This document shows, piece after piece, positions 1 to 53,016 of a DNA stretch of 64,000 nt. The DNA lies in contig NC_089280.1 of assembly GCF_963678975.1 (NCBI RefSeq), positions 33,250,603-33,314,602 on the forward strand. Reading direction: 5' to 3'. Origin of the DNA: Dysidea avara. Its lineage: Eukaryota > Porifera > Demospongiae > Dictyoceratida > Dysideidae. Numbering within the stretch: position 1 is the first letter of the stretch; the number at the start of each line of letters is the position of its first letter. The position numbers were made by a program, and so were the translations under genes. Under the pieces are notes generated by a model that was not told where the DNA came from, ran no database searches, and was given only the letters and a program-made list of their open reading frames with translations.

Positions 1-480
1 GCTGAACTCTCTACAAGGTAACTTCTTCTAGCTGATCTTTCTACAGGGTAATTTGTTGGTAGCTGAATTCTCTACAGGGTGATTTGTTTGCAGCTGAACT
101 CTGTACATGGTAGTTTCTTTGTAGCTGAACTTTCTACAATGTAATTTCTTCTAGCTGAACTCTCTACAGGATGACTTGTTTCTAACTGAACTCTCTACAG
201 TGTGATCTGTTCATAGCGGAACTTTCTACTGGGTGATTTGTTTGCAGCTAAACTCTTTGCATGATTGTTTCTTTTTAACTGAACTCTCTACAAGGTAACT
301 TCTTCTAGCTGATCTCTCTACAGGGTAATTTGTTTGTAACTGAATTCTCTACAGGGTGATTTATTTGAGCTGAACTCTCTACATGATGGCTTCTTTGTAG
401 CTGAACCCTCTATAAGGTACCTTCTTCTAGCTGATCTGACTACAGGGTGACTTGTTTGTAGCTGAATTCTCTACAGAATA
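1..480 (+). repeat. 31-bp minisatellite array, copy 1 (window-edge partial)
   Basis: This is a tandem array of about 31-bp units built on AGCTGAACTCTCTACAGGG followed by TGATTTGTTTGT, with many variants (TGATCTCTCTAC; CTTCTTCTAGC). It runs off the left edge and leads directly into the conserved tail at 481-1360. The same unit forms the large arrays at 8600-11008, 32800-36550, 51130-52950 and 60000-61650. No coding potential is seen. Confidence 0.95.
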
Positions 481-7858: not shown

Positions 7859-8292
<434 letters not shown>

Positions 8293-11008: not shown

Positions 11009-11241
11009 AAAAGGCTTTCATCCTGGTCAACTGTCATTCCTCCTACGGGCAGCTTCTGATACTCTCCCTACTCCAGTTAATTTACAGCGATGGTCACTAC
11101 ATTGTTGTGCAAGGTGTTCACTTTGTGATACAAACCGTCCCACCACAGCTCATGTTCTGAGTGGCTGCCCTGTAGCATTGACTCAACAGAGGTATACGTA
11201 TCGGCATAACCAAGTGCTTTTCATTTTAGCAACTAAATTTG
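11009..11241 (+). mobile_element. LINE fragment, 5' part of an interrupted C-terminal domain
   Basis: One frame reads LSFLLRAASDTLPTPVNLQ, then CCARCSLCDTNRPTTAHVL and SGCPVALTQQRYTYRH. This is the cysteine/histidine-rich C-terminal region found in some sponge and cnidarian non-LTR retrotransposons. The frame continues exactly at 22681 once the 11.4-kb element and one 4-bp duplicate are removed (…LATKF / VEAFTSAPF…). The upstream junction with the minisatellite is abrupt, so this is a broken LINE copy. Confidence 0.8.
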
Positions 11242-12029
11242 GGGTCATTCCATGTCAAATCAACAAGGAATTTAGGTTCACCTCTCGGATTTTGACAAAA
11301 CTTGGTGTGTTTGTAGTACCTGTGGTGCTTATCACTCATGAAAATTTTTAGCTCTACACATTCCATAGTTTCTGATTTATGACCACAAATATTTTGAATA
11401 TTTCATGAAAATTTGATCCATCTCTAGTTATAAAATTGACTGCAACTTTGCACTGTGTAAATATTTTTAAACACAATTTTCACTGATGGAAGACTGTTGA
11501 TTGACCTTTCCAGTGATCCCTAAATAATGGGAATCTACTTAATTATGGTTCAAAAGTACTTCATTGAAAACTTTAATCCTTTATATTTTGAGAAATGTTG
11601 CTTGAATTTTTCAAATTCTTTTGTGAATAATGATTGGGTCATAGTCTATGTTTGATAAAATTTTTGTGGTGGGACCACAATGGGCTCAAGAGATATAATG
11701 AATTATATTGTGGTATGTGGTGGAATTTGCAGGCTATTATTATTGGATTGGAGTGTACACCTCCAATAACCACTTACAACAAGGCTTTGCCAAGTTTGTC
11801 TTACAGAGTGAAGGTGTCTAGGTGCATTGCAACCTGTATTAGTGACCACCTGTATTGCAAGGCCATCTATGTGCTGCAGTTAAGTTATCTTCTTTAATGT
11901 ATACCACCAAAGCATCAACCCTTTCTAGCAAATCCAAAAATGGTCCTTATTAGACAGGTTGACTATAAATTAAAGATCTGACCACCATGTGTCCATAAGC
12001 ATCATGTAAAATTAATGTTGTACCATCTC

Positions 12030-25148: not shown

Positions 25149-25801
25149 GAGGAAATGATTACAGAAGTCAAAGGATTATCGCTATTACTGTACCAGCTCA
25201 TATAATGTCAACATCATTCACTATAAACATCATTGATGACAACATTGCAGAATGTGATGAAACATTTACACTAACACTTAGTGTTCCATCCTCACCTTGT
25301 GGAGTTATTAGTGGAAGTGATGATACTAGTGAAGTGATGATAAGAGATGATGATGGTAGGAGAAGTGCTAGTGATTATGTTGTGTTATTACTGACCAACA
25401 GGTGTAATGTTGTCATTTGACCAATCACAATATTTTATTGAAGAGAACATGACTCCATTATCAGTTGGTCTAATACTAAACAGGACAACCTCTGAAGATG
25501 TTATAGTAGAAGTTAGTGTGAATGATAGATCAGCCAAAGGTAATAGTTATTAATTGTTGATGTAAAGTTGAGGGATATTCTACTACAGCTGGTATTGACT
25601 ATGATAGATCAGGAGCTCCACTAGTGTTTAATGTGACTATTAGTAGTGGAGTGACATCATCATCATTTGATGTGAATATCAATAATAACACAAGACAAGA
25701 TGGAGATACGATGTTCTCCATTACTATTAGACTGATATCAACTTGTTTACCAATAACCATCAAGTCTGATACTACCAGTGTGACTATCATTGATGATGAC
25801 G
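25149..25801 (+). other. Gene 1 exons 1-3: one and a half Calx-beta domains
   Basis: Exon 1 is the second half of a Calx-beta domain: GGNDYRSQR, then SFTINIIDDNIAECDETFTL and VMIRDDDG. Exon 2 (25402-25539) is a first half, with SFDQSQYFIEENMTPLSVGL. Exon 3 (25589-25801) is its second half, ending SVTIIDDDG. In the Calx-beta family the acidic DDD/DDN and ExxETF positions bind calcium; they are kept here. The partner first half for exon 1 is missing from the visible sequence. Every exon starts and ends in phase 1. Confidence 0.85.
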
Positions 25802-28800
25802 GTATAGTTGCACTGATGTTATTTATAAGTGTTCTACTTTTTAAAATTATTTACACTTGTATATCCATCACAACAATCCAAGTTTAATATAATAAATTCT
25901 TTGAGTCATGGCTGAGGATCTGCTGATTATACTGACATACTTTTATTTATCATTCGTCTAGGGACCTGCGGTAAGGTTAAATAAAGTCTGTGTAGCAAGG
26001 AGTCAGAAAGATGTAGAAATCCCATATGAGGTGGTTACTTGATCCACCGACAACTTTGAGCAAAACTTTACATTGCTAAGAGAATCAGGCATGATGGAAA
26101 ATTTTCACTTCTAGCTAATAGATAAAATTCTAGCCTAAACATTGTTAGCCTTGTACAGTGGTAGTACTGTAGCCAGTAAGGCCAAGCCAATGTGTGGTTA
26201 TTGCTAATTGTTGGCACTAAACAGAGAGTTGCTCTAATAGTGCAGTCATTTACTCTATTACTATATACAGTCACCCAATTAGAGCAGTGGCAGATGCCCA
26301 CCCAAAATTTCCTAGGACAGCAGCACCCATTATTACAGGCAAGAGACAAGTAGTGCATACGTAGGTAGCATGATATATTCATTGTAAATCAGCAGTTGAC
26401 ATTGAGAAACATTCAATAATTGCATCACATGATCCAAGTTGTGTACAGTACCATGTGATCAAAAATTTTGGTGAGGAAGAGAGAAACACAAGGAAGTAGG
26501 GAATCCAGTTTTTTCCACATCCAGAATACTTAGTTGTGAGTAACTGCACAGATTCTCTTGTTGGCAGGTTACAGAACAAGACAATTAGGTGTAATATTCA
26601 TTTCTAGAACAGCCACACATACATAATTGTCTTGAGTTTATCATGTTTACTTTTGTGCGCAGTAAATGGCAGGTCATCTTTGTAAACAATGGCTAGCAGA
26701 TTTTCTCTATAATGTACAGTAAATCTTATTTGTCTTGAACAACACTTTTAATGCAATTAAGCATTAATTTTCATTTCTGATAGTTATGGAATACTAGGCA
26801 TTTTTGAGATTGATATAAACTTACTTTCTTTCAATTAGTTCTTCGTATTCAGTTTTCATCAACAAGTTTTAGTGGATCAGAATCATCTGGTGAAGTGTTA
26901 GTCAGTATTGTGATGTTGGGAGGAAGTTTTGATAGAAATATTAAAATATATGTCAGTCTACGTGGAATAAATGTAATAGGTCAGTGGATACTTATAAGTA
27001 TTATTAGCTAATTAGATAAAGCCATTTTTGAAACAATTAACAATTCTGTCTACAGTTATACACAGATATAGCAAAAACTAATTATGGCTTGTATCATCCT
27101 ATCCTTAAAGAATAAAGTCATTGTTGCTATTGGTTTAGCTTCCATACAATAAATCATTTGTTTAAAATTAGCTATGTTCACTTTAGTTAATATGTCTATG
27201 TGTTATGCAAAAGTAAAAATTAAGTAATTTGCAGAAGAAAACGACTTCCGTCCTACTCGTCTCACTGCTACAATTCCTGCTAATGCCACTACCACTACAG
27301 TGAGAGTACCAGTGATGAGTGATAGTATTGTTGAGGGAGATGAGATGTTTAGTATGAACTTGAATGTACCATCATCACTTGGTCCTGGAATAGTAGCTGG
27401 TTCTGTTACTAGTGCAACTGGAATAATACTGGATTCTACTGGTAAGCTTAAACATTTGCAAAGTAATTATTTACATAAATGTTATCACAGATATAACAGT
27501 GCAGTTCACACAAACACAATACACTGGTTCAGAAGATACAGGATTTGTACTGGTAACATTGGAACTAGTTGGAGGAACATCCAGTAGACCATTTGATGTC
27601 ACTGTTACTCCATTAGAACAGTCACCAGTGTCTGCAAGTAATGTTGTCTATTTTTATTATTATTGCATCTTCATCTGATTGTGTTATAGGTACCTCTGAT
27701 TTTAATTCTAGAGCTTTTGATGTAACATTTAATCCTGGAGATATTATTAAATCCTCAAACATAACAGTGTATAGAGATGACATAGTTGAATTCAATGAAA
27801 CTTTTAATATTGTCATATCTCTATTACCTCTTCTTAATCTTCATATTAAAGTAGATGACAAAATTTCCATTGAAGGACATATAGTAGATTCCACTGGTAA
27901 GAGCAGTGTCTATACATGGATTTCTTGTTGTAAATGAAATTCCATTGGCTTAGATGTGAAAAATATATTGTCGTGCAAAGTTTATTGTGATTAATTGTTT
28001 TGTAGTGATTGCCTCAATCACAGAGTATCCTGATAACTTCACAGTTGTATATGAGAATGATAGCATCACCTTATCCTGTAATGCCACAGCTAGTGGCCCC
28101 ATTATGTATCAGTGGAGGAGAAGTAGTAGAAGGATGATTAATAACAATGCCAAAGGAGTCAACACGCCTACACTAACTATATCATCGGTTACACAAGATG
28201 ATGAGGATGAGTATTACTGTACTGCTAGTTATGGTGTATATGTGAATGGGACAAGTCATGTAGCTGAGTCAGAGAGAGCACAAGTTGTTGTATTTGGTGA
28301 GACCACATGCATGCATCATTATTATACTTGTGTAAATGTTGCGCAAAATCTTTGATATATAACTTTCATGATCTTTTATTCATTATCAAGCCAGTATTAA
28401 ATCTTTCTTGTTTATTTATGTTGTCTGTTTGTATTTAGTTATTTTATGCATCATTATGTATAGGTCCTCCAGTAGTAAAACCATTTGATTCAGTCTATTA
28501 TGCTATTGTTGGACAGTCATTTACTCTGAATTGCTCTGCTATAAATGATTATGATTCACCCAACAGTTTAACATTTGCTTGGTTTAAGGACAGCAACTTA
28601 ATAAATGAAAATATTGTACAAGTAAAAGTGGTGGACTCCACCACATCTCAGCTAGTTATAACACAGTTGGATCCTGACCAACACGGTGGACAATATTCTT
28701 GTGGAGTATATAATAATGAGGTATCTGATGCTGTGTATATATCTACTAGTTTAATAATTGAAGGTTAGTTTGCATATGTATATGCTCAACAACTGTGATT

Positions 28801-31800
28801 CAATAGTTGTTGATACACAGTTGCAGACTTTACTAAGCTATTGGCCAGTGCAGTTGAATCATTCAGAATCAACGAAACAAGTTATGCTGTTAACATCAGA
28901 TTTGTGTTGCCAAATTTCTATGATGAACCAATCAGGTATGTACAGGGTACCTTGTATAGAATGTTTTATACATGGTGGCTAGCAGCAAACTGCTACAATT
29001 GTTTTGATACAAATTGTGATAGCAGAAAAATACCATATTGGCCCAAAAAGGAGGTGCTTAATATATACCTGTACCCTAGTAGTTGTTGTGCATTCAGTCA
29101 AAAGTAATGACCACATCTCCAGGTCCATTTAACATGAGGTGCCAAAAAGTGGTTATAATTATGCTAGGGTTTGCATAGTTGATTGCACTTATGGCAAGTA
29201 GCATTTGGATTACGTACATGCATAGCCTCATTTCTGACTGTTGCAATTGGAAATGCAAAACTGTATTTGCTCTCACTAAAGATATCACTATTAGGCTTGA
29301 GCCAAATATGCTTTGAAAATTGCCTATTATGCTTTTGAGCAGTGCTCAATAATCCAGCCTATTATGCTCAAAATTATGCTCTCAAAATTGTGATTATGCT
29401 CTAGAACTGACTGTTTATTAGAGTATAATCTGTATTTGCTGACTGCTGTATTAGAGTAACTGACTGCTCTATTAGAGTATCTTGATCTTATTACCATAAA
29501 GTGTGAATAATCAGTCAAGAAATAGTAAAATAATAACAATGCAAGGTTTTTTGATATGAAATGCAGTAATAATTTGCAGTGTGCTCATGTTGTACAGTAT
29601 TTGTGGCGGGCGCATTGCACAGTTTATTTAGAATTCTTGAAAATCATCCTATTATGCTGACATAATGCTTGATGCTTTTGCCAGCCTATTATCCTCGAAA
29701 TTATGCCGGCATAATTGGTGCAAGCCTAATCACCATACTAATAAGTGCTATCCCATGGCCAGCACCTGTTATACACCAAGGAATAATTATCACTCAAAGT
29801 AAACAAGTTCTGTTAAATTCCATATCCAACATAATTTGAATATTTGATGCATTAATGCTTAATAGCAAGCCTCTCTTGCAATACCTTTATTCAGAATGTT
29901 CTCTGACATTCAACCATATCAAACAGTACAGTAATACTGTTTACGTACAATTTTCCCAAAAGTGATGTGCCACTAGGTTTGAGTACTAGAGAAAATCACC
30001 CCGAGCCAGACAACCAGGAAGTACAATATAACACTTAATGCACCGCCTTGCTTGTGTGTATGAAAAATACAGTACTTGGGAGGTGTATCGAGGCAAATAC
30101 AACACTCGGCTTCACTTAGTGCTGTATTAGTCTCTCAACACACCCCCTTGTACTGTATTTTCCGTACACACGCACGGTGGTGCTTTAACTCTAACATAAA
30201 TGCAGGAAAGATTTAAATATGGGTCAGTAGCTGGTATGGTCTGACTATGTATGGCTATGTTGAATGGACAAATCCTAGAGATATCACGCAAAATTTCAGT
30301 TATGCGAGTTTAATGTTTTAATCAGTACTATTGTATCGATTATGGCATACTTATTAAAGGTAAGCTTTCTTGTATTTTCATGTAAAGTGGCAGCTTCGTT
30401 GTATCAGTAATGTGGGTGTGGGTCTGTATTCAAAAATGTGTGGAAACGCTTGCTGTAGCACTAGTTCTCACCTTAGCTCAACGTTTTTCAACTCATAGAA
30501 TAGTGAGGACAACAAAATGCTTTTGAGTGGTTTTCATGGCCTAATCCAAGCCAGGGCTACAACCAGGCAGCGATCGTATAGACATTAAGGCTGAAAATTG
30601 ATTGTGAAATAGATTTACACTCACATGATTAGTATGCATGACTTACATTCAGATGTAGTTTGGGAAAAGTCACCAACTTGCTACATTGCAAATGTATATA
30701 GCCTGGGTGGCTCCTTTGATCTCAGGCATGAAAGTGATACATTCATTAATGCTATGAAACTAAAGTGGTAAGTAGTCCTTGCTTCCTAACAGTGGAATAT
30801 TTTTACAGTGTACATGATATATATATAACATTTTATTAGACACAATACCTCTGTTACTTGCTTAGACCACATGCAGTGCAAGTGTAATGGCATACGTAGA
30901 TAAATCTCTTTTCTCTAACTCTGATAGTGTATTGACATAACAGCTCCATTTATAATGTGCATTAAGTACTGGTACATATAGCATAAAAATAACAGAATGG
31001 CACCATACATAATTATCATAACATTCATTTTGTGTCTCCACGTGCACCCCCACCAAATGAATTTTACACTCTGTAATATGTTCAGCCCGTTATACAGCAT
31101 TACAAAAGAAAAAAATATTAGAAGTGCCTTTACAGTCAATCCAGTCAGTACAATATACACAGTCAGACAATTTCCATTCTAAATGTGATAGTCAGCACAT
31201 AGGGAAGCCTTTAAGTACTACTGCATATCGACACTTTGTGCTGTCAGCAAAAAGATATGGGTCACAATGTTTGGTCCATGATGCATCCATTGTGTGTATT
31301 GTGATATGCCTAAAGACATCTGAACTATCAGTGAAAACCAAGCCCTTATATACATAGGCTTAGCAGTTATTTTGAAGGCATCAGTTATTTAGTCAGTCAG
31401 TAGAAGGTTCCACTGAACAGCAATTTTAATATTTTGTATCAACCTATTAGAAAGCATTGTAAGTCGTGCTGAAGGTACTTATGAGAGCTTGCCGCGGCAT
31501 CATAAATGTATTATTTTAGGCTGGTTTCTGATCAATTATTTTATTAGGAAGTGCAACCTTCATGATCCCTGTTATACAGTACTACCATACCATGTGATAT
31601 TTTTAACCACAATGTAATCCTGTGTTGCTTGTTATGGTTTTAGCCACTGGGTTGTTGTTGTGACCATGGATGGAAATGTGACTCCTTCTTTAATACCAGA
31701 CAGTGATCTTGTCAGTTATTCTGAATCAATTGGCCACACCATGTATGTTGCAGTTGTAAAGGATAACACAATTGAAGACCAGTGGGAGAAAACTGTAATA

Positions 31801-34800
31801 TTGGGGAATGGAAATACAAGCACATGGAATGGTAAAACCTATTACAATTCTCCTCTCAGTAAAGGTGTTTCATACCATATATTCATAAGGGCCTATGCTG
31901 CCAGTCATTTTGATATGGTGAGTTGATATCAAGACACACGGTAGTGTGTCGTGAGGCCCAAGAAGCCGGCGCGCCACACCGTGAGTATATTTACAGGAAG
32001 AAAGTAAACGCGATTTTTTTCACACCTTTGTAGCTCCATGATTCCTTATCCGATTGAAACCAAAGTTGCTACAGAGGTGCCGGTTAGGTAGGGGAGTCCA
32101 CATTCCAAATTTGAAGAAAATCGCTCCAGCCATTTCCGAGATACGAGCGGCCAAAGTTTGGGTTTTTTTTCTTCGTTTTTTTCTTCTACTCCTTTTCGCA
32201 CACTTTGCAAAATCCGAAATAAAACACGAATGCGTGTTCCAATCGGGCTGAAATTTGTCACACTTAAAGGGCTCATTAAGGCGAACCTCAGTACCAAGTT
32301 TGGTAGGGCTCCGATGAACATTCACGGAGTTATTACAGATTACTTGCGTAAAATAAGCCGGTCGAAGGTCTGTCACGCCCACAGGGTAAACCGCTTGAAG
32401 GAATGAGCTGAAAATTGCTATGTAGATGGAGTAACTATCGTAGGAGTGCCTTTTTGTGGTTTGAAAGGAATCCAGTTAAAGGCCATCGAGATATAACACA
32501 AAACCCAACCTGTGTCACAATTACGCGATCGATTTTTATGAATAAAAAACTATTAGTTTTCACGCCTACCAGGCAAACCGCTTAGAGTAGTGAGCTGAAA
32601 ATCAGTATGTAGCTGGAATAATTATCATAGAAAGTACTTGCAGTAGTACAGAAGAATCGGATTACAAACCACTGAGGTATGATTCCAAAGCCAACTACGT
32701 GTAGCATATGCGAGATCGAGATACTCTAATAGAACAGTCACCCTAATAAAGCATTCAGCTACGTTTATAACTTACTCCATTATAGAATTATATTACATTG
32801 CAAGTTATTCTGTAGGGAGTTCAGCTACATACAGTTAATCTTATAGACAATTCAGCTACAAGCAAGTCACCCTGTAGAGAATTCAGCTACAAATATGTTG
32901 CTGTAGAGATTCAGAACATTATAAGTCACACTGAAGAGAATTCAGCGATAAACAAGTCACCTTGTAGAGAGTTCAGCTACAAGTCACTCTGTAGAGAATT
33001 CAGCCACAAACAAATCACTGTGTAAAGGGTTCAGCTACAAAAAAAGCTACCCAGTAGAGAGTTCATCTAGATCAGCTACAAACAAGTCATTTTAAGCAAT
33101 GTTCAGCTACAAGTAACTCACTCTGTAGAGAGTTCAGCTACAAACAAGTCACTCTGTAGTACAAACAAGTCACCGTGGAGAAAGAGTTCAGCAACCAATC
33201 AAAGAACCACCATGTAAAAGAGTTCAGCTATACAAACAAGATATAACTCTATAGAGAGATCAGGTAGAAACTTAACAGATCACACTGTAGAGAGTTCAGC
33301 TAGAAACAAGTCATCCAGACTAAGTAGAGAGATCAACTAGAAAACATCACCTTGTAGAGAGTTCAAATCACCCTATAGATAGTTCAGCTACAAACAAATC
33401 ACCCTATAGATAGATCAGCTAGAAAAAGTCACCTTGTAAAGAGTTAGCTACAAAGAAACTACCATGTAGAGAATTCAGCTATCAACAGATCATCCTGTCA
33501 AGAGTTCAGCTAGAAACAAGTCATCCTGTAGAGAGATCAACTAGAAGAAGTTACCTTGTAGAGAGTTCAGCTACAAAGAAACAACCATGTAGAAAGTTCC
33601 ACTGCAAACAAATCAAACTGTACAGAGTTCAGCTACAAACAAATCACCCTGTAGAGAGATCAGCTAGAAACAAGTCACCTTGTACAGAAATCAACTAGAA
33701 GAAGTTACCTTGTAGAGAGATCAGCTGCAAACAAACCATCATGTAGAGAGTTCAGCTGCAAACAAATCACCTGTAGAGAGTTCAGCTACATATAAATCTC
33801 CCTGTAGAGAGATCAGCTAGAAGAAGCTACCTTGTAGAGAGTTCAGCTACAAAGAAACCACCATGTAGAGAGTTCAGCTGCAAACAAATCGAATTGTAGA
33901 GAGTTTAGCTACCAACAAATCACCATGTAGAGAGTTCAGCTAGAAACAAGTTATCCTGTAAAGAGATCAGCTAGAAGAGGTTACCTTGTAGAGAGTTCAG
34001 TTATGAACAAACCATCATGTAGAAAGTTCAGCTGCAAACGAATCACCCTGCAGAGAGTTCAGCTACGAGAATATCACCCTATAGAGAGTTCAGCTAGAAG
34101 AAGTCACCTTGTAGAGAATTCAGCTTCAAAGAAACCACCATGTAGATAGTTCAGCTGTAAACAAATCATCCTGTAGAAAGTTCAGCTACGAACAGATCAC
34201 CCGGTAGAGTTCAGCTAGAAACAAGTAACCCTGCAGAGAGATCAGCTAGAAACAAGTCATCCTGTAGAGAGACCAGCTAGAACAAGTCACTTTGTATGTA
34301 GAAAGTTCAGCTACAAAAAAAATCACCCTGTAGAGAGGTCAACTACAAACAAACCTCCCTGTAAAGAGATCAGCTAGAAGAAGTTACCTTGTTGAGAGTT
34401 CAGCTAGAAAGAAACCATCATGTAGAGAGTTCAGCTGCAAACAAATCACCTGTAGAGAGTTCAGCTACAAACAATTCACCCTCTAGGAAGATCAGCTAAA
34501 AGAAGTCACCCTGTAGAGAGTTCAGTTACAAAGAAACCACCATGTAGAGAGTTCAGCTACAAACTAGTGACCTTGTAGAGACATCAGTTACCTTGTAGAG
34601 AGTTCAGCTACAAAGAAACCATCATGTAGAGAGTTCAGCTGCAAAAAAATCACCTGTAGAGAGTTCAGCTACAAACAAATCACCCTGTAGAAAGATCAGC
34701 TAGAAGAAGTTACCTTGTGGAGAGTTCAGCTACAAAGAAACCATCATGTAGAGAGTTAAGATGCAAACAAATCACCTGTAGAGAGTTCAGCTACTAACAA

Positions 34801-37800
34801 ATCTCTCTGTAGAGAGATCAACTAGAAGAAGTTACCTTGTAGAGAGTTCAGCTAGAAAGAAATCATCATGTAGAGAGTTCAGCTGCAAACAAATCACCTG
34901 TAGAGAGTTCAGCTACAAACAATTCACCCTCTAGGAAGATCAGCTAAAAGAAGTCACCCTGTAGAGAGTTCAGTTACAAAGAAACTACCATGTAGAGAGT
35001 TCAGCTACAAACTAGTGACCTTGTAGAGACATCAGTTACCTTGTAGAGAGTTCAGCTACAAAGAAACCATCATGTAGAGAGTTCAGCTGCAAAAAAATCA
35101 CCTGTAGAGAGTTCAGCTACAAACAAATCACCCTGTAGAAAGATCAGCTAGAAGAAGTTACCTTGTGGAGAGTTCAGCTACAAAGAAACCATCATGTAGA
35201 GAGTTAAGATGCAAACAAATCACCTGTAGAGAGTTCAGCTACTAACAAATCTCTCTGTAGAGAGATCAACTAGAAGAAGTTACCTTGTAGAGAGTTCAGC
35301 TACAAAGAAACCATCATGTAGAGAGTTCAGCTGCAAACAAATCACCTGTAGAGAGTTCAGCTACAAACAAATCACCCTGTAGAAAGATCAGCTAGAAGAA
35401 GTTACCTTGTGGAGAGTTCAGCTACAAAGAAACCATCATGTAGAGAGTTAAGGTGCAAACAAATCACCTGTAGAGAGTTCAGCTACAAACAAATCTCTCT
35501 GTAGAGAGATCAGCTAGAAGAAGTTACCTTGTAGAGAGTTCAGCTACAAACAAATCACCTGTAGAGAGTTCAGCTACAAACAAATCTCCCTGTGGAAAGG
35601 TCAGCTAGAAGAAGTCACCTTGTAGAGAGTTCAGCTACAAAGAACCATCATGTAGAGAGTTCAGCTGCAAACAAATCACCCGTATAGAGTTCAGCTACAA
35701 ATAAATCTCCCTGTAGAGAGATCAGCTAGAAGAAGTTTCCTTGTAGAGAGTTCAGCTACAACAAATCACCCTGTAGAAAGATCAGCTAGATTACCTTGTG
35801 GAGAGTTCAGCTACAAAGAAACCATCATGTAGAGAGTTCAGCTGCAAACAAATCACCTGTAGAGAGTTCAGTTACAAACAAATCACCCTCTAGAAAGATC
35901 AGCTAAAAGAAGTCACCCTATAGAGAGTTCAGTTACAAAGAAACCACCATGTAGAGAGTTCAGCTACAAAGTAGTGACCTTGTAGAGACATCAGTTACCT
36001 TGTAGAGAGTTCAGCTACAAAAACAAATCACCCTGTAGAGAGGTCAGCTACAAACAAATCTCCCTGTAGAGAGATCAGCTAGAAGAAGTTACCTTGTAGA
36101 GAGTTCAGCTACAAAGAACCATCATGTAGAGAGTTCAGCTGCAAACAAATCACCTGTAGAGAGTTCAGCTACAAACAAATCTCTCTGTAGAGAGATCAGC
36201 TAGAAGAAATTACCTTGTAGAGAGTTCAGTTACAAAGAAACCACCATGTAGAGAGTTCAGCTGCAAAGAAATCACCCTGTAGAAAATTCAGCCACAAACA
36301 AATTGCCCTGTAGAAAGATCAGTTAGAAGAAGAGAGTTCAGCTGCAAAGAAACCATTCTGTAAAGAGGTCAGCTGCAAACAAATCACCTGTACAGAATTC
36401 AGCTACAAACAAACCACCCTGTAGAGAGATCAGCTAGAAGAAGTTACTTGTAGATTGTCAGCTACAAACAATGCACCCTGTAGAGAGAGCAGCAAGAGGA
36501 AGTCACTTTGTAGAGTGTTCAGTTACAAAGAAACCACCATGGAGAGTTCTGTAATAAATATATGTGTTATATATATAATTTGTACATTTACTGATAAAAT
36601 CAGAATTATTTAAAGTACATCTGCTTCCTCTTTTCTTCTTCCTGTGGAAAAGAAAAAAGACAGGTTAAAGAAGTCCCAAAGCCGGCCTATGGCCGGCTTT
36701 GGCGTATACAAATACAAAAAGAAGTGAAATCTAACCCAAAAACCCAGCTGTAAAAAAAGTGTGCGGCCCTCAAAAAGGCTATGGTGAAAAAAGATGTGAA
36801 ATCCAAGGTGGCTGCCAAGAAATGGCTGTGATGGTAGGTTAATGGTAAAAATTTTAATAACGGCAATTTAGGTGAATTTTTTGCCAAGACCAAGCGGCAC
36901 AAAAATTCACCTGAATTGTTGTTATTAAAAGTTTTACCATTAACCTACCATCACAGCCATTTCTTGGCCGCCACCTTGGATTTCACATCTTTTTTCACCA
37001 TAGCCTTTTTGAGGGCCGCACACTTTTTTTACAGCTGGGTGTTTTGGATTAGATATCATTAAACTGTAATGTTAGGAAATGGAAATACAAGCACATGGAA
37101 TGGCAAAACCTATTACAATGCTCCTCTAAGTAAAGGTGTTTCATACTATCTGTTCACAAGAGCCTATGCCTCCAGACATATTGATTGTAGTGTTGTTTTA
37201 GTACAGCAAATTCATTTTAGTTTAGTTCTAGTTCTATTGCCCATAGTCCCCTAAAGTTTTAGTTAGTTTTAGTTCTAATACCCAATTCCACCATAGTTTT
37301 AGTTAGTTTTAGTTCTAGTATCTCAATTCTACCATAGTTTTAGTTAGTATTAGTTCTGGTACCCCATATTTCTGTACTTTTAGTTAGTGTTAGTTTTAGT
37401 GTTAGATATCTTCACATATACTAACCTTGGTAGCATGCCCTAGACTTCCAGAAACTTTAGATTTGGTGTTTTGATAGATTTTTTCTCATTTTATATCGAT
37501 GAGGCAAACTGTACCAAGAATCCAATTCTTCAATTAATGCACAAAATTCACTGTTATCTACTAAATTCAGTGGTACATTGTTAGCACCTATAAAGGTTGT
37601 AAGATGAAATGTATAATAGTCTTATGTTTATTGCTGTTAGGGTTGCACAATTTAGATCCTAAACTATGTATTGGCAAGGAGGACTGTTTCAACTGGCTAG
37701 AAGAAACTCTCCTTTCTTTTTCCTTGTCTTTTCAATTTCAGCTGCTTCAAAAATATTTATAAGTGTCAGTATGGCATGTCTTCAAATGTTTCTTCAAGTT

Positions 37801-38676
37801 TATAGAATATTGTCCTTTAAATTCTTTTATACCACAAATCAAACCATCAGTACTTTTCACAGTACACACACTTTTGTCCTTGATCTTATCGTACCTGAAG
37901 TAGTTCACACTCCACTTGACTTAGGCCTTCCACCTGGTTTAGCACAACTTTCACTTGCCATTGTGCGCAAATGAACAAAAGCTCTAATAGAATTGTGCTT
38001 AAATAACCTAAATCAGCAGAATTAATGCTGAATAACAATGTTTTATGGTAGCATTTCCAGGCATCACCATCTTCAAAGAAAAGTGTTAAGTGGATATAGT
38101 GTACAATATCCTTTTATGTAGGATTGCTTGAGAAAACTTTTAGTTCTTGTCCTAAAAATTTAAAAAGTTTTGGTTTAGTTCTAGTTTTTGAACCGAAATT
38201 TGAATGAATTTTAGTTTAGTTTTAGTTTTAGAACTAAAATAGACCACAATTTTAGTTTAGTTCTAGTGTACTAGAACTAGAATTAAATTGCTGTACTAAA
38301 ACTAGATTTAGTTTTAGTTCCTTAGAACTAAAACAACACTAATTGATTGGAATAGGTTTGGTGCATTAGCAAATTACTTATGAATATAAAAATTGTTAAA
38401 TATAATAATGAAGTTTCAATTGGCTTATCTATGCAATTTAATGTATATGGCTCATAGGCGGTGGAGACAGGGGGGTCATCCCCCCCCCAATTTTTTTGGG
38501 ACACTGTTTGCAAGAAAAGATCGAGATACTCTAATAGAACAGTCAGGATCTGGATACTCTAATAGAGCAGTCACAGTATTCAGAGAAGCAGTGTAGCAAA
38601 TTACTTAGCTACGTATGTGTAGTTATAAATAAGGAGATATAATTGGTGGAGAGCAGCTATTGTTAGCAGGCTGTGA

Positions 38677-38707
<31 letters not shown>

Positions 38708-39368
38708 GGTCTTCAACTCTCAGCTGGCCTGGCCCCCTCAGTCTTTGGCCTGCTTCACTGCCCCTGATATGGCTGATGTATTCCATGTGACATATACTCT
38801 TTTCTACACAGAATCCACGATATGCATCAAGTGCTTTGTCACTACTAACTTCAGTTGGTATGTTGGCCAGTAATGTATTGCTTATTCTTAAATGTCCTAC
38901 ATTGTTGATTAACATGTATACTTTATTGGAGTGGCTAAGTTGGACATAATAAATAAGTGTGCTTTTTCTGCTTTTTAGACAACAATCGTCTTGACGATTC
39001 CTGCAATTGTGAATGTGGTGGTCACGTAATTGGAATTGCTATTGTTGCAGTTTTGTTGATAGTGGCTATAGTCTGTATTGTGGGATTGGTGATTTGGATT
39101 GTTCAGTTAAACAAAAAAAATACACAACTTCAAACATCAAAACAGTGAGTGATGTATTAAGAGATTATTTCACTTAGAATTTGTGATGTTTAGGGATTCA
39201 GCACCTCAAACAGCTAAGGAGTCAGCATATGAGCTAATAGATAAATCTGGTGATGTTAATATGGAAAAGAATCCAGCATACTCAGTCACTGGTGTCCAGG
39301 AGAGCTCAGTGGATCATCACTACGAGTCCATACCTGTTAATAATCGTTATACCAAAGCTAAACAATAA
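25149..39368 (+). CDS. Receptor gene 1: Calx-beta / Ig / FN3-like / transmembrane protein (5' end not found)
   Basis: Predicted exons: 25149-25355, 25402-25539, 25589-25801, 26839-26979, 27235-27441, 27491-27637, 27690-27896, 28006-28296, 28464-28763, 28821-28935, 31644-31917, 38812-38857, 38979-39144, 39194-39368. All junctions are GT-AG and agree in phase, giving 874 open codons to a stop. Domain order is half a Calx-beta, three Calx-beta, two Ig, one FN3-like, a short linker, a cysteine-rich DDSCNCECGG, a transmembrane helix and a tail of about 75 residues. This is a type I surface protein, probably an adhesion or recognition receptor; the function is inferred. No signal peptide or start exon was found, so the 5' part lies in or beyond the repeats upstream. 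Two introns are swollen by transposons. Absence of any lesion argues that the gene is functional. Confidence 0.85.
25802..26838. other. Gene 1 intron, about 1 kb, no separate feature recognised
   Basis: Short minus-strand frames (26068-26382; 26379-26579) show no domains. From about 26697 the intron matches 61985 onward, marking the left edge of the segmental duplication with gene 2. Confidence 0.5.
26839..27896 (+). other. Gene 1 exons 4-7: two divergent Calx-beta domains
   Basis: Exon 4 has IQFSSTSFSGSESSGEVLVS; exon 5 has TIPANATTTTVRVPV and SIVEGDEMFSMNLNVPSS; exon 6 has VQFTQTQYTGSEDTGFVLVT; exon 7 has DIVEFNETFNIVIS and ends HIVDSTG. They keep the Calx-beta strand pattern but have lost parts of the acidic loops (DSTG in place of DDDG), so calcium binding may be weaker. 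Exons are 141, 207, 147 and 207 bp, all multiples of three with phase 1 borders. The whole block is duplicated at 62138-63205. Confidence 0.85.
28006..28763 (+). other. Gene 1 exons 8-9: two Ig domains
   Basis: Exon 8 encodes an Ig domain with TLSCNATASGP, YQWRR and DDEDEYYCTASY: the two cysteines, the core tryptophan and the D-x-Y-x-C strand F signature. Exon 9 encodes a second, with FTLNCSAIND, FAWFKDS and DPDQHGGQYSCGVYN. Each Ig domain is a single exon with phase 1 at both ends, the classic shuffled Ig-exon arrangement. Several N-x-S/T sites are present. Both recur in gene 2 at 63312-64000. Confidence 0.93.
28990..29291. other. Intron sequence, nothing recognised
   Basis: AT-rich, with no clear repeat ends or coding exon. 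Confidence 0.4.
29292..29728. mobile_element. hAT-type MITE, divergent relative (TAGGCTTGAGCC ends)
   Basis: The ends are TAGGCTTGAGCCAA and, inverted, TAGGCTTGCACCAA. The 8-bp flanks ATCACTAT (29284-29291) and ATCACCAT (29729-29736) differ at one position. The body has CCTATTATGCTC repeats and the TCTATTAGAGTAT motif, as in the copies at 12030 and 23797, but with changed ends. It is older than those two. Confidence 0.85.
29737..30400. other. Intron sequence, nothing firm
   Basis: A short inverted pair around GTATGAAAAATACAGTACTTGG (30058) and GTACTGTATTTTCCGTACAC (30151) suggests a small foldback with a roughly 60-bp centre. Otherwise unassigned. Confidence 0.4.
30410..30780 (+). repeat. 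Interspersed repeat family C, copy 2
   Basis: This matches 5380-5760 in order and orientation (TGTATTCAAAAATGTGTGGA, TTCTCACCTTAG, TTTTTCAACTCATAGAATAG, ACATTCAGATGTAG). Diverged and non-coding. Confidence 0.6.
30870..31590 (+). repeat. Interspersed repeat family B, copy 3
   Basis: This shares with 4450-5230 the blocks around ATGTTCAGCCCGTTATACAG, the TGAAGGCATCAGTTATTTAG / GTCAGTCAGTAGAA run and the CATGATCCCTGTTATACAGT end. It is the most diverged of the three. Confidence 0.55.
32830..36550 (-). repeat. 31-bp minisatellite array, 3.7 kb, with higher-order repeats
   Basis: About 120 units in reverse orientation (CCTGTAGAGAGTTCAGCTAC). A block with the distinctive CCCTCTAGGAAGATCAGC variant at about 34480 recurs near 34924, giving a higher-order period of about 444 bp, with a further related copy around 35880. 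This points to recent unequal exchange or slippage of multi-unit blocks. Confidence 0.95.
36690..37050. repeat. Foldback module (inverted arms about 170 bp)
   Basis: The left arm (GTGAAATCTAACCC … ATGGTGAAAAAAGATGTGAA … CAAGAAATGGCTGTGATGG … TAATAACGGCAATTTAGGTG) folds on the right arm (… CATCACAGCCATTTCTTGGC … ATTTCACATCTTTTTTCACC …). Outside it lies an AAAGCCGGCC/GGCCGGCTTT palindrome at 36686-36710. Other copies are at 50568-50925 and 56300-56610; halves lie at 6930-7090 and 61800-61970. Confidence 0.9.
37060..37187 (+). pseudogene. Truncated duplicate of gene 1 exon 11 (FN3-like)
   Basis: This reads MLGNGNTSTWNGKTYYNAPL and KGVSYYLFTRAYASRHID, about 80% identical to the end of exon 11. 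It lacks the front half of the exon, starts at the composite element's edge, and has no donor site. A hAT element has inserted directly after HID. Exon 11 joins in phase to exon 12 at 38812 without it, so this piece is probably not used. Confidence 0.8.
37188..38341. mobile_element. hAT-type non-autonomous element (TAGTGTTGTTTTAGT ends)
   Basis: The terminal inverted repeat TAGTGTTGTTTTAGT is perfect at both ends, and the 8-bp target duplication ATTGATTG is perfect (37180-37187; 38342-38349). Both subterminal regions are arrays of AGTTTTAGTTCTAGT-like units. No transposase is seen; a 102-codon frame at 37666-37974 has no known domain. Confidence 0.93.
38455..38775. mobile_element. hAT-like non-autonomous element with poly-T, copy 2
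   Basis: This matches 3903-4262 in order: C-rich left end, the 19-nt motif twice (38527-38545 and, as a variant, about 38554-38572), GAAGCAGTGTAGC, a T tract of about 29 bases (38679-38707), GGTCTTCAACT and a right end GCCCCTGAT. It lies just upstream of gene 1 exon 12. Confidence 0.6.
38812..39368 (+). other. Gene 1 exons 12-14: linker, transmembrane helix and signalling tail
   Basis: Exon 12 is only 46 bp (NPRYASSALSLLTSV), with a pyrimidine-rich acceptor and a GTATGT donor; it is the one exon I found that joins phase 0 of exon 11 to phase 1 of exon 13. Exon 13 encodes DDSCNCECGG, then a helix IGIAIVAVLLIVAIVCIVG. Exon 14 is the tail with SAYELI, NPAYSV and HHYESI before the stop at 39366-39368. 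SAYELI fits the ITIM pattern (S/I/V/L)xYxx(I/V/L), and NPAY fits the PTB/endocytic NPxY motif. Phosphorylation signalling is therefore plausible, as inference. Confidence 0.82.
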
Positions 39369-43610: not shown

Positions 43611-44186
43611 TTTACTACAGTGGTATATCCCCAGTATATGGAACAGTTAATTGTTTGTTATTTTAGTAGTTTTTCAGTAAACCCGCATTCACTGATGTTT
43701 TACTGAGAGTTTAAAACTTAGTAAAATAATTATGTTCCATATACTTAAGTTTACTGACACTTTACTATCAGTATAACTACAGTAAGGCATCTTAACAAAT
43801 TAGTAAACTAACAACCTTCAAGCAGTGAACGGTGCTTTTTAAGAAAAATATTACAGGAGTTGGGCATAGATCAGAACACATAATGCAGGCCATAGTTTTT
43901 GAATTGGAGCAGTAACAACAGTGGTAGCTCAAGGAATCCAGAAGAACTTCACATGCCAAAACATAATTTATGCAAAATGCAATATACAATTGTCAAACAC
44001 ACATGAAATCCACTGTATCAAAGATGACTGGACTGATTTGGTTACCGTATAATTTGGTGTGTAAGATATCCCACTTCCACAAAATTATAGGAATTGAAAA
44101 ATCGTTTCCTGTATAATACACACTTGTCTGTCAAACACAGGCATTCTTGGTCGTACTGCATACTACTAGTTGTTTTGATATTACGG
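43611..44186. other. Intergenic, nothing recognised
   Basis: AT-rich, with TTTACTRWCAGTA-like short inverted segments around 43610-43790. No gene supported. Confidence 0.4.
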
Positions 44187-45857
44187 GAGGTGTTGATTAT
44201 GGTAGTGGACTTTGCAATGTCACCATTCCTGCTAAAATGTTTGGAACATCATTTAGTGTTCCCATATTTGATGATAATATAATATAATGGAGAACGATGA
44301 AAGATTTTCAATTCGCATAGTTTCTAACTCACTACCTGAATATGTCATCGTCTATCATCCCAGTCTGACAACAGTGACTATAAGAGATGATGATAGTGAG
44401 CCAGTGTTATACCCAATTTTGCATATGTGACTGGGCGTGCAACAATAGGGCATGAATTTACCTAATATTCAAGTTTTAGTGACTCATAAATTTTTATGCC
44501 ATTTTGCTATAGTCATGCAATTTTTCAGGCTTATATGATACATGAATACAAATAGTCTGTTCCAATACTAAGATATGACTATTATTTTATTGTGATAGCT
44601 GTCAAAATCACTTTCAGTCAGTCAACATACAGTGTTAATGAAGATACTGGATCAGCACAACCTGTACTAGTTCTCAGTAACTCATCATCAACTGATATTA
44701 CTGTACAAGTTAGAGATACTCAGATTACTGCCACTAGTGAGTGAAGTAACATCATCACAAAATGTTAATAGTAGTAATAATGTTACAGGAGGCGTTGATT
44801 ATGATTCTGGACCATACACTGTCACATTTCCTGCTGGACAGACTAGAGTTTCACTGAATATTCCAATCAATGATGATGGCATAGTAGAAGATAATGAGAA
44901 ATTTACATTGTTTATAAACAAACCCTTGCCTAATAGGGTCACTGTTAGAAGACGTGATATTAAAGCTAGCTTCACCATAGTAGATAATGACTATAAGCAA
45001 TATTTCTAGCAATAATGCTGTTTAATAATGGCCAGTGTTACTCTGTAAACCAAAATGGCATGGAATGTTTGTATGATTTAGCCATGGTGTATGCTGTAGA
45101 GACACATGACTAATATTTAAACATGCCAGACTAACTGATGTTTCAATAGAATGCGGATTAAGTTTCACTGCACCATGTCCTTCAATGTACTGTTGGGATA
45201 AACAAAGGCTGGTAGAAGCTTGAAAAATGAAGGTGGCCAAATAATGAGTGCACAACCATGATTAAAAGTATATACCTTTTAATGGTGGATGACACACTTC
45301 TGATGTACATAATCATCTTCTAGTGAGAATTATATCACAAGCACGCTAATAACATAGGCTGCTATTATAACTCACACATACATATATATTTGTAATTGCT
45401 CTATTCTTGAATATTGTGTTTACATGAATGTGTTGTGTAGTGTTAGTAGTGGAGTTTGGATCAGATGAATTTGTTGGTTTAGAGTCATCAGGACATGTAT
45501 AAGTTGTAGTGATAATATCAGGAGGATCATCTATCACACCTATTGAAGTAGTGGTGACTCCTTCTGAGCAATCACCAGTGTCAGCAAGAGATGAGGGATA
45601 CATTAACAAGTAACACAATGTATGAACTAGTGATTACTGTACTGTGATAGGATCAGGTGTAGACTTTGACTCTAATCCAATTACTATAATATTTGGTGTT
45701 GGAGAAGTGAGTGAAAGAGTTAATATACTAGTGAGCTGTGATGAGGAGGTGGAAGGAGAAGAAACATTTGATATAACCTTGTTCTGGACAAACAATAGTC
45801 CTCAATTGAGAAGTGGTAAACACACATCGGTGGGAAAGATATATGATTATAATACAG
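44187..45857 (+). pseudogene. Decayed Calx-beta exon block (paralogue of gene 1/2 exons)
   Basis: Five Calx-beta exons are recognisable. 44187-44395 (GGVDYGSG, FGTSFSVPIFDDN) has lost its acceptor AG and carries a frameshift after DDN. 44599-44736 (ITFSQSTYSVNEDTG) is clean. 44789-44992 (GGVDYDSGPYTVTFPAG) has a donor changed from GT to AT. 45441-45587 has an in-frame TAA at 45500-45502 and a donor changed to GA. 45651-45857 (SGVDFDSNP, CDEEVEGEETF) is clean. Three of five exons are damaged at splice sites or frame, so this block is very likely not translated as a whole. It could be the relic of a receptor gene between genes 1 and 2, or the dying 5' part of gene 2. Confidence 0.8.
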
Positions 45858-46077
45858 GTACAATAATGAGCAATTTTGTATAGTATAGATGTGTAATACT
45901 GTTAAATCTATAGTAGCAGTACATACTGCATACAGCATCAGATTCCTTTTAAGAATTCAAGAGTTTAAGATTTAAATGCAGTATGAAAACTAAGAAGAGA
46001 CTTTTTCAAAATGCCCAACATTTAATGAAATTCAAAATCATGCAAATTCTAATTAGAATAACGGATCCAAGACAATA
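45858..46077. other. Short spacer, nothing recognised
   Basis: AT-rich, no feature supported. Confidence 0.4.
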
Positions 46078-50340: not shown

Positions 50341-50478
50341 ATATCTCCATCACCTTCAGTCAGTCAACATACAGGGTTAATGAAGATGATGGACCAGTAC
50401 AACCTGTACTAGTTCTCAGTAACCCATCATCAACTGATATTACTGTACTAGTTAGAAGTACTGATGGATCAACTACTG
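50341..50478 (+). other. Calx-beta first-half exon, separated from its partner by transposons
   Basis: 138 bp, phase 1 at both ends, acceptor TATAG and donor GTAAGT. It reads ISITFSQSTYRVNEDDGPVQ and PVLVLSNPSSTDITVLV. The expected second-half exon is absent: 6.2 kb of composite element and BEL/Pao fossil follow, and the next exon at 56750 is again a first half. Joining 50341-50478 straight to 56750 stays in frame but would make a defective domain, so the second half was probably deleted when the elements arrived. Confidence 0.8.
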
Positions 50479-50567
50479 GTAAGTGCATTACCATCTCCTA
50501 TAAATTATTCATATTAACCCTTTAAGCTTTACAAAATGCATACATCATATCCACATAAGCCACTATA

Positions 50568-53016
50568 ATATTATCTAATCCAAAACAGCCAAGCTGTAAA
50601 AAAAGGATGCGGCACTCAGAAAGGCTATGGTGAAAAAAGATGTGAAATCCAAGGTGGCGGCCAAGAATTGGCTGTGATGGTAGGTTAATGGTAAAAATTT
50701 TAATAACGACAATTCAGGTGAATTTAGTGCCGCTAGGTCTTGGCACAAAATTCGCCTGAATTGTCGTTATTAAAATTTTTACCATTAACCTACCTTCACA
50801 GCCATTTCTTGGCTGCCTCCTTGGATTTCACATCTTTTTTCACCATAGCCTTTCTGAGGACCGCACTCTTTTCTTACAGCTTGGCTGTTTTGCATTAGAT
50901 TTCACTTCTTTTTGTATTTGTATACCCCAAAGCTGGCCTATGGCTGGCTTCAAAGCTGGCCTATGGCTGGCTTTGGGGCTTTTTTAACCTATCTTTTTTT
51001 CTTTACCACAAGAAGAAGAGAAAGATGAAGAAGTTTTTACATACTTTAACTAATTCTGATTTTATCAGTAAATGTACAAATTATATATATACATTTAATA
51101 ATGCATTTATTACATGTTAATTATTCCCTACAGATAACTTGTTTGCAACTCTCTACAGGGTGATTTGTTTGTAGCTGAACTCCCTACAAGGTAACTTCTT
51201 CTAGCTGATCTTTCTACGGGGCGATTTGTTTGTAACTGAGTTCTCTACAGGGTGATTTGTTTGCAGATGAACTCTCTACATGGTGGTTTCTTTATAGCTG
51301 AACTCTCTACAAGGTGACTTCTTCTAGCTGATCTCTCTACAGGGTGATTTGTTTGTAGTTGAACTCTCTACAGGTTATTTGTTTGTAGCTGAACTCCTTA
51401 CATTGTGTCTAGTTTCTAGCTGATCTCTCTACAGGGTGATTTGTTTGTAACTGATCTCTCTACAAGGTGATTTGTTTGTAGCTGATCTCTCTGCAGGTTG
51501 ATTTGTTTGTAGCTGAATTCTCTACAGAATGATTTATTTCTAGCTGATCTCTCTGTAGGTTGATTTGTTTGTAGCTGAATTCTCTACAGGGTGATTTTTT
51601 GTAGCTGACCTCTCTTCAGGGTGATGTATTTCTAGCTGATTTCTCTACAGGTTGATTTGTTTGTAGCCGATCTCTCTACAGGGTAATTTGTTTATAGTTG
51701 AACTATCTATAAAGTGATTTGTTTGTAGCTGATCTCTCTATAGGTTGATTTTTTTAGCTGAATTCTCTACAGGGTGATTTATTTGTAGCTGAACTCCTTA
51801 CATTGTGTCTAATTTCTAGCTGATCTCTCTACAGGGTGATTTGTTTGTAGCTGAAATCTCTACAGGGTGATTTGCTTGTAGCTGAACTCCTTACATTGTG
51901 TCTAGTTTCTAGCTGATCTTTCTACAGGGTGATTTGTTTGTAGCTAAAATCTCTACAGGGTGATTTTCTTGTAGCTGAACTCCTTACATTGTGTCTAGTT
52001 TCTAGCTGATCTCTCTACAGGGTGATTTCTTTGTAACTGATCTCTCTACAAGTTGATTTGTGTGTAGCTGATCTCTCTGCAGGTTGATATGTTTGTAGCC
52101 GATCTCTCTACAGGGTAATTTGTTTGTAACTGAACTATCTATAAGATGATTTGTTTGTAGCTGATCTCTCTGCAGGTTAATTTGTTTTAGCTGAACTCTC
52201 TACAGGGTGATTTACCTGTAGCTGAACTCCTTGCATTGTGTCTAGTTTCTAGCTGATCTCTCTACAGGGTGATTTGTTTGTAGCTGATCTCTCTACAAGT
52301 TGATTTGTGTGTAGCTGATCTCTCTGCAGGTTGATTTGTTTGCAGCTGATCTCTCTACAGGGTAATTTGTTTGTAGCTGAACTCTCTATAAGGTGATTTG
52401 TTTGTAGCTGATCTCTCTGCAGGTTGATTTGTTTTAGCTGAACTCTCTACAGGGTGATTTGCTTCTAGCTGAACTTGTCTATTTTCTAGCTAATGTCTCT
52501 ACAGGGTGCCTTTTTGTAGCTGAACTCTCCTCAGGGTGATCTGTTTCTAGCTTATCTCTCTACAGGTTGATTTGTGTATAACTGATCTCTTTACAAGCTG
52601 ATTTGTTTGTAGCTGATCTCTCTGCAGGTTGATTTGTTTCTAGCTGATCTCTCTCTACAAGTTGATTTGTTTGTAGCTGATCTCTCTACAGGGTAATTTG
52701 TTTGTAGCTGAACTCTCTCCACAGTGACATGTGTGTAGCTGAATTCTGTAGAGAGTGACTTAATTGTAGCTGAACTCTCGACAGGGTGCATGACTTGTTT
52801 ATAGCTGAACTCTCTTCAGTGTGACTTGTAATGTTCTGAATCTCTACAGTGATATATTTATAGCTTAACTCTCCACAGGGTGACTTGCTTCCAGTTGAAC
52901 TGTCTATAAGAGTAACTATTTGTGGCTGAACTCCCTACAGAATAACTTGCAATGTAATAGAACTCTATAATGGAGTAAGCTGAATGCTCTATTAGGGTGA
53001 CTGTTCTATTAGAGTA
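50568..53016 (+). mobile_element. Composite foldback-minisatellite element, copy 5 (tail missing)
   Basis: The order is foldback module (50568-50925), GGCTGGC-type palindromes (50926-50980), AT-rich spacer to 51120, minisatellite 51130-52950, and the 19-nt motif (52998-53016), after which a BEL/Pao fossil begins abruptly. This gives the same left-to-right order as in 37057-31925. Confidence 0.88.
51130..52950 (+). repeat. 31-bp minisatellite array, 1.8 kb
   Basis: About 58 units. A multi-unit block with the rare variant CTCCTTACATTGTGTCTAGT recurs near 51390, 51790, 51890, 51980 and 52225, showing higher-order duplication independent of that in the 32830-36550 array. Confidence 0.95.

Follow-up and report, generated by a model that had tools for sequence, protein, structure and literature searches.

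A Dysidea avara array of related receptor ectodomains, followed by phosphatase exons or a three-tyrosine tail, that may work like paired receptors

Introduction

Vertebrate paired receptors (KIR, LILR, and SIRP) carry similar ectodomains on opposed signalling modules. Paired receptors serve other animals in recognising self/non-self or danger. In sponges, we know of no membrane receptors for self/non-self or microbe recognition. Here, we describe a receptor gene, gene A, in a 64,000-nt stretch of the sponge Dysidea avara (NC_089280.1, positions 33,250,603 to 33,314,602; hereafter, the window, on contig C9) and its paralogues in the assembly (550.8 Mb, 108 contigs searched). Gene A is predicted to be the 3′ portion of a gene for a single-pass receptor: several Calx-beta domains, 2 Ig domains, and a membrane-proximal domain of the phosphatase type are followed by a membrane helix and a tail of 57 residues. 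It appears to belong to a receptor-phosphatase-related family located mostly at about 30.2–34.4 Mb of C9. Five-digit positions refer to the window and 8-digit positions to the contig.

The array resembles vertebrate paired receptors in its similar ectodomains on opposed modules; in vertebrates, the partner module is a membrane segment that binds an adaptor, whereas the partner in the array would be a phosphatase domain. PTPRJ-like receptor tyrosine phosphatases (PF18861) have a PTP_tm-kind domain beside the membrane, as gene A probably has (its match is at the cut-off), and receptor tyrosine phosphatases are also like the siblings of gene A in the array, which lead into phosphatase exons. By contrast, gene A has a short tyrosine tail instead of a phosphatase domain, and Calx-beta repeats combined with Ig domains are not an ectodomain that we know from receptor tyrosine phosphatases.

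In the histocompatibility locus fuhc of Botryllus, the FcoR genes are described, in the available part of PMC12065747, as clustered single-pass Ig receptors, each beside a partner gene, whose tails may hold an immunoreceptor tyrosine-based inhibitory motif (ITIM), a half immunoreceptor tyrosine-based activation motif (hemITAM), or a core Y-x-x-I/L/V. As described there, the FcoR differ from gene A in having V-type Ig, sushi, and C2-type Ig domains and neither Calx-beta nor PTP_tm, and they are backed by functional work, whereas the gene A array is known from sequence. The Alr genes of Hydractinia form an Ig-type single-pass receptor family in one interval, the allorecognition complex (excerpt of PMC11067881), with 41 members (excerpt of PMC11999971); in these excerpts, they differ in having no Calx-beta, PTP_tm, or phosphatase siblings, and allele sharing governs the response. 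Sponge aggregation factors contain Calx-beta and are said to control demosponge allorecognition (excerpt of the review PMC10815962), but they are an extracellular proteoglycan, whereas gene A would be a membrane receptor with Ig domains and a tail. These 3 systems may be regarded as parallels, not as tests. Among the titles and abstract openings covered, neither a Calx-beta/Ig receptor with the order of gene A nor a phosphatase/tyrosine-tail receptor array was found. Calx-beta, tyrosine phosphatase, and sponge co-occur in the available part of PMC6208332, but as separate table entries, and the available parts of PMC8242945 and PMC11229196 contain nothing about Calx-beta/Ig or phosphatase/tail receptors.

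Membrane-proximal exons are followed by a tail or by phosphatase exons

With moderate confidence, we read the genes described here as an array of related ectodomains that are followed by either phosphatase exons or a three-tyrosine tail and that would work like paired receptors. A profile search, in which 150 of 344 candidates were scored, revealed that phosphatase exons (PF00102) sit behind many membrane-proximal exons of the array. The PTP_tm profile matches only 2 places genome-wide, and the array was therefore mapped with single-exon protein queries instead. The membrane-proximal exon of gene A matched 22 places, of which 10 were used; a half-copy in the window (described below) and 11 weaker matches (27%–41%; C5, C7, and C8) were not included. 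The corresponding exon of another tail locus, L014, matched 24 places, all of which were used. The 2 exon kinds aligned over 87 columns in a profile comparison, with 29% identity (E = 1e-7, probability 94%).

The next module, counted if it was at most 25 kb away and ahead of the next membrane-proximal exon, was a tail for 17 of these 34 exons and a phosphatase for 15, with neither within reach for 2 (3, 6, and 1 among the 10 exons of the A kind; 14, 9, and 1 among the 24 of the L014 kind). Two of the 34, both followed by a phosphatase, lie outside the array (C2:19.98 Mb and C9:18.11 Mb), and among the 3 tail-type copies of the A kind, that at 33491643 is broken, with a stop inside its tail or close to it. 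Of the 29 plus-strand exons located beyond 30 Mb on C9, 19 lie no more than 5 kb from a module; random placement (2,000 trials) gave a mean of 1.4 and a maximum of 7.

A third copy of the A kind, copy 3 (33460494–33462434), comprises 2 Ig exons and a membrane-proximal exon, followed by a different, Gly-rich membrane segment. The next 2.2 kb contain no three-tyrosine tail, and phosphatase exons are located at 33466024, which is also the next phosphatase profile match listed downstream of gene A and its downstream paralogue, gene B. Ten residues of a 46-nt linker exon of gene A also occur in 2 copies assigned to phosphatase exons. Judging from A, B, and copy 3, the switch between tail and phosphatase would occur at, or close to, the phase-1 intron that follows this linker exon.

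The tail and phosphatase modules could instead be alternative last exons of one gene with two 3′ ends, that is to say, the array would consist of splicing-switchable receptors. This arrangement would suit the linker exon common to A/B and copy 3, with divergence thereafter, and 2 loci on C9 in which a tail match follows phosphatase exons: 32598278–32599005 with a tail at 32601573 (2.6 kb on) and 32896867–32897208 with a tail at 32901165 (4.0 kb on). Nevertheless, we consider it unlikely: the next-module distances separate 32 of the 34 copies, and the phosphatase loop HCxAGxGR had no match on either strand of C9:33200603–33464602, a 264-kb segment that includes A and B, in a motif search run without a positive control.

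The tyrosine tail is conserved in its NPxY motif

Searches with 2 tail queries (25 and 24 places) revealed 23 tail loci genome-wide, 22 of which are on C9 at 30.19–33.49 Mb; 3 weak places (C9:33141973, C5:4950185, and C3:45023914) are not counted. Twenty of the 23 loci were fetched and 18 tails were aligned, with L015 and L030 (broken or diverged) left out. The residues E, Y, E, N, P, A, Y, V, Y, and P are invariant in all 18 tails, NPxY is present in every one as NPAY[SA]V, and at least 2 YxxI/L/V sites are present in 16. The ectodomains of the tail-type loci vary. Genes A and B have Calx-beta, Ig, Ig, and PTP_tm-like domains; L014 has a trace of Ig and one FN3 domain, whose 2 exon halves together score 54.7 bits, as well as a membrane-proximal exon of the related kind; L021 and L025 have Ig-Ig, and no membrane-proximal match was found in the 1.5 kb 5′ of their tails.

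The sequence-only reading had described an ITIM-like and NPxY tail of the inhibitory type; an ITIM as the defining feature of the tail is not supported. With the ITIM and ITAM patterns taken as [SIVL]xYxx[ILV] and YxxL/I x6-12 YxxL/I, respectively (consensus patterns), the strict ITIM was present in gene A alone among the 18 tails (SAYELI; the closest copy, B, has SAYELM), and the ITAM-like pattern was present in 1 tail, which is not that of gene A. Both were thus rejected as family motifs. Shuffles of the 71-residue gene A tail contained the ITIM pattern in 12% of cases and NPxY in 1.4%, and SAYELI alone is therefore within chance. A classical inhibitory receptor for self/non-self recognition, as previously proposed, would agree with the ITIM match of SAYELI and with the SHP-2-like gene in the genome (SH2-SH2-phosphatase in one 598-aa frame, C10:227154–228656), but the lack of the motif in B and in all other aligned tails, together with its frequency in shuffled tails, makes it very improbable.

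The NPxY in all 18 tails would also be expected of ordinary Calx-beta/Ig adhesion receptors that use it for endocytosis or cytoskeletal anchoring and arose by neutral tandem duplication, and Calx-beta repeats and broken copies are indeed found close by. We regard this explanation as somewhat unlikely, given that 2 more tyrosines are kept in all 18 tails and that siblings with related ectodomains precede phosphatase exons.

Ig1 and the membrane-proximal exon show opposite patterns

The first Ig domain (Ig1) of gene A shares 87% identity with its counterparts at 34290549 and 33676923 and 84% with that at 34389882, all 3 of which are assigned to phosphatases by order; the identity is 74% to the copy lacking a module within reach and 72% to the tail-type B. 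The membrane-proximal exon has the opposite pattern, being closest to tail-type copies: it shares 80% identity with B, 76% with the broken tail-type copy 33491643, and 44%–55% with 33461911, 33678966, 33838808, 34141308, 34291675, and 34397796. Five of these 6 C9 copies are assigned to phosphatases.

Over 26700–29100, A and B differ by 0–12 mismatches per 100 nt in exons and introns, except at 27900–28199, a segment that covers an intron end and the initial two thirds of Ig1. Each 100-nt block there contains 23–25 mismatches (mismatch rates of 23%–28%). The first two thirds of Ig1 differ by about 24%, compared with about 5% on average in the surroundings. One 300-nt segment contains 73 of the 186 A/B mismatches, a concentration equalled in none of 1,000 shuffles. 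Segmental exchange in the recognition exon Ig1 would be the simplest reading of this pattern.

The ratio of non-synonymous to synonymous divergence (dN/dS, Nei-Gojobori) between A and B is 0.10 for the tail (5 synonymous and 2 non-synonymous changes), 0.29 for Ig2, 0.59 for Calx-beta, 0.65 for Ig1, which has the highest dN (0.18), 0.89 for the membrane-proximal and linker exons, and 1.08 for the membrane exon. The ratio for exon 26839–26979 is 2.28, with 7 non-synonymous changes and a single synonymous one. Positive selection is not clear in this comparison, in which the change counts are small. Among the 18 tails, the median ratio is 0.43 (143 of 153 pairs).

Exon model and domains of gene A

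Gene A was rebuilt independently from splice sites as 14 exons on the plus strand (25149–39368) encoding 874 residues and a stop, in agreement with the exon and codon counts of the sequence-only reading. All 13 introns are GT-AG with compatible phases (nine of phase 1, followed by 2, 0, 1, and 2), and there are no internal stops. Exon 1 of the model (25149–25355), entered in phase 1, encodes the second half of a Calx-beta domain. It is followed by Calx-beta halves a and b at 25402–25539 and 25589–25801, 26839–26979 and 27235–27441, and 27491–27637 and 27690–27896, and by Ig1 (28006–28296) and Ig2 (28464–28763). The PTP_tm-like membrane-proximal domain (PF18861) is encoded by 2 exons (28821–28935 and 31644–31917), and the remaining exons encode the 46-nt linker (NPRYASSALSLLTSV, 38812–38857), a Cys-rich stalk with a transmembrane helix (38979–39144), and the cytoplasmic tail with 3 tyrosines (YELI, NPAYSV, and YESI) and the stop (39194–39368). 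The stalk carries CNCEC, and the hydrophobic helix was read in exon 38979–39144; the terminal helix and the tail motifs SAYELI and NPAYSV reported previously are thus found in the last exons.

In the joined protein, Pfam profiles matched Calx-beta in 4 stretches (134.6 bits, E = 2e-39; cut-off 27) and Ig_3 in 2 stretches (77.1 bits, E = 1.5e-21; over the cut-off). PTP_tm scored 25.5 bits, slightly below its cut-off of 26.3, and reached 27.2 bits on the single-exon frame and 26.2 or 26.6 bits in the genome search. With E values up to 0.1 considered, fn3 did not match the joined protein, and PTP_tm is the best match at that place. Therefore, of the Calx-beta/Ig/FN3-like ectodomain described earlier, Calx-beta and Ig stand and FN3 does not; a single-pass receptor joining Calx-beta and Ig to a tyrosine tail agrees with these matches and with the conservation of the tail among paralogues. 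The joined membrane-proximal domain had no match among PDB sequences up to E 10, and the predicted structure of its second exon had a mean pLDDT (predicted local distance difference test) of 44.2, too low for use.

Gene B and the 6.9-kb intron of gene A

The last Calx-beta, Ig, membrane-proximal, linker, membrane, and tail exons of gene B pair one-to-one with those of gene A, and its membrane-proximal, linker, membrane, and tail exons are all located inside 0.9 kb. The linker exon reads NPRYASSALSQLTSV in B and NPRYASSALSLLTSV in A. Because gene B has the same exons right behind its membrane-proximal exon, the membrane exons belong to gene A, and the concern, raised with the earlier interpretation, that the membrane and tail exons are part of another gene is ruled out.

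All features of gene B in the window are on the plus strand. Upstream of its Ig exons, Calx-beta half-exons are found at 44186–45859, some of which are disrupted, by a frameshift near 44281 and an in-frame stop near 45500. A single half a (50343–50480) separates these from a second run at 56755–59665, which is broken after about 59180. Two further Calx-beta domains, as 4 half-exons (62138–63205), precede Ig1 (63312–63602) and Ig2 (63750–64000), the latter cut by the window end; the remainder, to the tail, is at 64107–80917 in window numbering.

The 6.9-kb intron of gene A contains 31-bp minisatellite arrays (32801–36546, plus strand) and the half-copy of the membrane-proximal exon (37063–37185, plus strand), which is 80% identical and lacks a donor site at the corresponding position. 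Use of the half-copy as an exon was rejected on this missing donor and on gene B, which holds just the 46-nt linker there (exon queries tried). One 31-bp minisatellite family occurs, on both strands, in 5 stretches of the window (1–485, 8603–11000, 32801–36546, 51147–52906, and 60003–61636).

The 5′ end of gene A

The gene A model has no start codon and its exon 1 is entered in phase 1; its 5′ end is therefore missing. No Calx-beta half-exon with E < 1 was found at 1–25148 of the window (frames of at least 20 aa). A fitting first half lies at −8884 to −8753 (window numbering), 33.9 kb upstream of exon 1, and joins it in phase; the joined domain scored 49.0 bits over profile positions 8–119. 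A gene start at 25149 was rejected on this basis. No signal-peptide exon was recognised, and no program search was aimed at one. As one transcript, we infer, gene A would hold nine Calx-beta domains across about 88 kb. Across the 264-kb segment that includes A and B, 78 Calx-beta half-exon matches up to E 0.05, which include several pieces of single broken exons, are all on the plus strand.

Gene A could alternatively be a decaying copy that no longer produces its ectodomain, with the 5′ exons left behind 34 kb upstream. Very large introns, repeats, and the stops and frameshifts of neighbouring copies would fit such decay; however, none of the 14 exons of gene A is damaged, their splice sites are GT-AG, and the tail dN/dS between A and B is 0.10 (on the 5 synonymous and 2 non-synonymous changes given above). 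We consider decay distinctly unlikely.

Other features of the window and the genome

A genome-wide Calx-beta search (150 scored of 1,577 first-look candidates) revealed Calx-beta frames without the intron split at C4:38.29–38.64 Mb (L001 and L005–L008), unlike the receptor array; they may be a candidate aggregation-factor cluster. Other dense Calx-beta clusters are located on C2 (11.06–11.37 Mb), C5 (23.98–24.02 Mb), C7 (18.2–19.9 Mb), C11 (0.74–0.97 Mb), and C15 (3.27–4.39 Mb).

SH2 matches close to phosphatase matches at C11:22.10–22.11 Mb, C11:24.81–24.87 Mb, and C13:4845512–4847319 suggest further SHP-type genes. Large sets of Src-family-like SH2 and tyrosine-kinase frames are present at C13:16.66–17.59 Mb and C12:22.83–22.98 Mb, and a 581-aa tyrosine-kinase frame (C9:34515789–34516631, minus strand) is about 0.11 Mb past the last receptor copy.

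The window also contains retroelement remains at 52861–55542 (minus) and 11010–11348 (plus), with RVT_1 (below the cut-off), DUF1759, and zf-RVT, and 208 perfect TG dinucleotide repeats at 7861–8276. A silicatein-like pattern, taken as a sponge-specific marker, had 1 match in the genome, with Thr for Ser, compared with about 0.5 expected by our own estimate and 0 in a reversed control.

Discussion

The previous interpretation of gene A is partly supported, and it missed the family with its phosphatase-linked members. Because other family members are followed by tyrosine phosphatase exons, the likely mechanism is altered. The following points weigh against a paired-receptor-like array: (i) the evidence comes from the genome sequence of one assembly; (ii) the links among Ig, membrane-proximal exon, and module are mostly by order, strand, and distance, and the accepted distances include three of 21–22 kb and one of 14 kb; (iii) the phosphatase exons were matched by profile, with 150 of 344 candidates scored; (iv) the exons of L014 and L016, which represent the 24 of the L014 kind, do not match PTP_tm by themselves, nor does a third, L022; (v) the C9 loci at 32598278 and 32896867, in which a tail follows the phosphatase, suit neither simple class, and the segments 32598278–32601680 and 32896867–32901272 are possibly transitional genes or alternative 3′ ends; (vi) 2 isolated matches to looser phosphatase-loop patterns, neither behind a tail, occur at 5171 (plus) and −10386 (minus) in window numbering; (vii) Ig1 of A is only 75% and 66% identical to 2 phosphatase-assigned C9 copies (34115213 and 33460494), a divergence similar to that from B; and (viii) the tail dN/dS over distant pairs (0.43) is moderate, and most A/B introns match as well as the exons, which leaves few changes to compare.

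In the proposed mechanism, the Calx-beta/Ig ectodomain would be bound by a cell-surface ligand and the tail would be phosphorylated by Src-type kinases; SH2 adjoining kinase domains are present in many frames on C13 and C12. The YxxI/V sites of the tail could then bind SH2 proteins, for example a SHP-2-like protein, and the partner of NPAY could be an adaptor of the PTB or endocytic kind. Siblings of the phosphatase type that have almost the same Ig1 would act as competitors for the ligand and as dephosphorylating enzymes, and the output would be set by the balance between tail-type and phosphatase-type receptors, as in paired receptors. A recognition role of gene A is plausible; self/non-self recognition or cell sorting, as named in the earlier interpretation, would be a hypothetical function.

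More tentatively, one chromosomal region of an early-branching animal may hold a matched repertoire, that is to say, 2 receptor kinds with interchangeable recognition domains. It is conceivable that one kind erases phosphotyrosine and the other displays it, their likeness being maintained by segmental exchange. Such a complex, which we propose tentatively, would be a paired-receptor recognition complex built on a phosphatase rather than on ITAM/ITIM adaptors, and sponges might use it as their set of recognition receptors at the cell surface. If this is true, opposing receptors with shared ectodomains arose in one early lineage of animals, with a phosphatase swapped with a tyrosine tail beside the membrane, and the array would offer a defined region (C9 30.2–34.4 Mb) and defined exon types for asking about self/non-self or microbe recognition.

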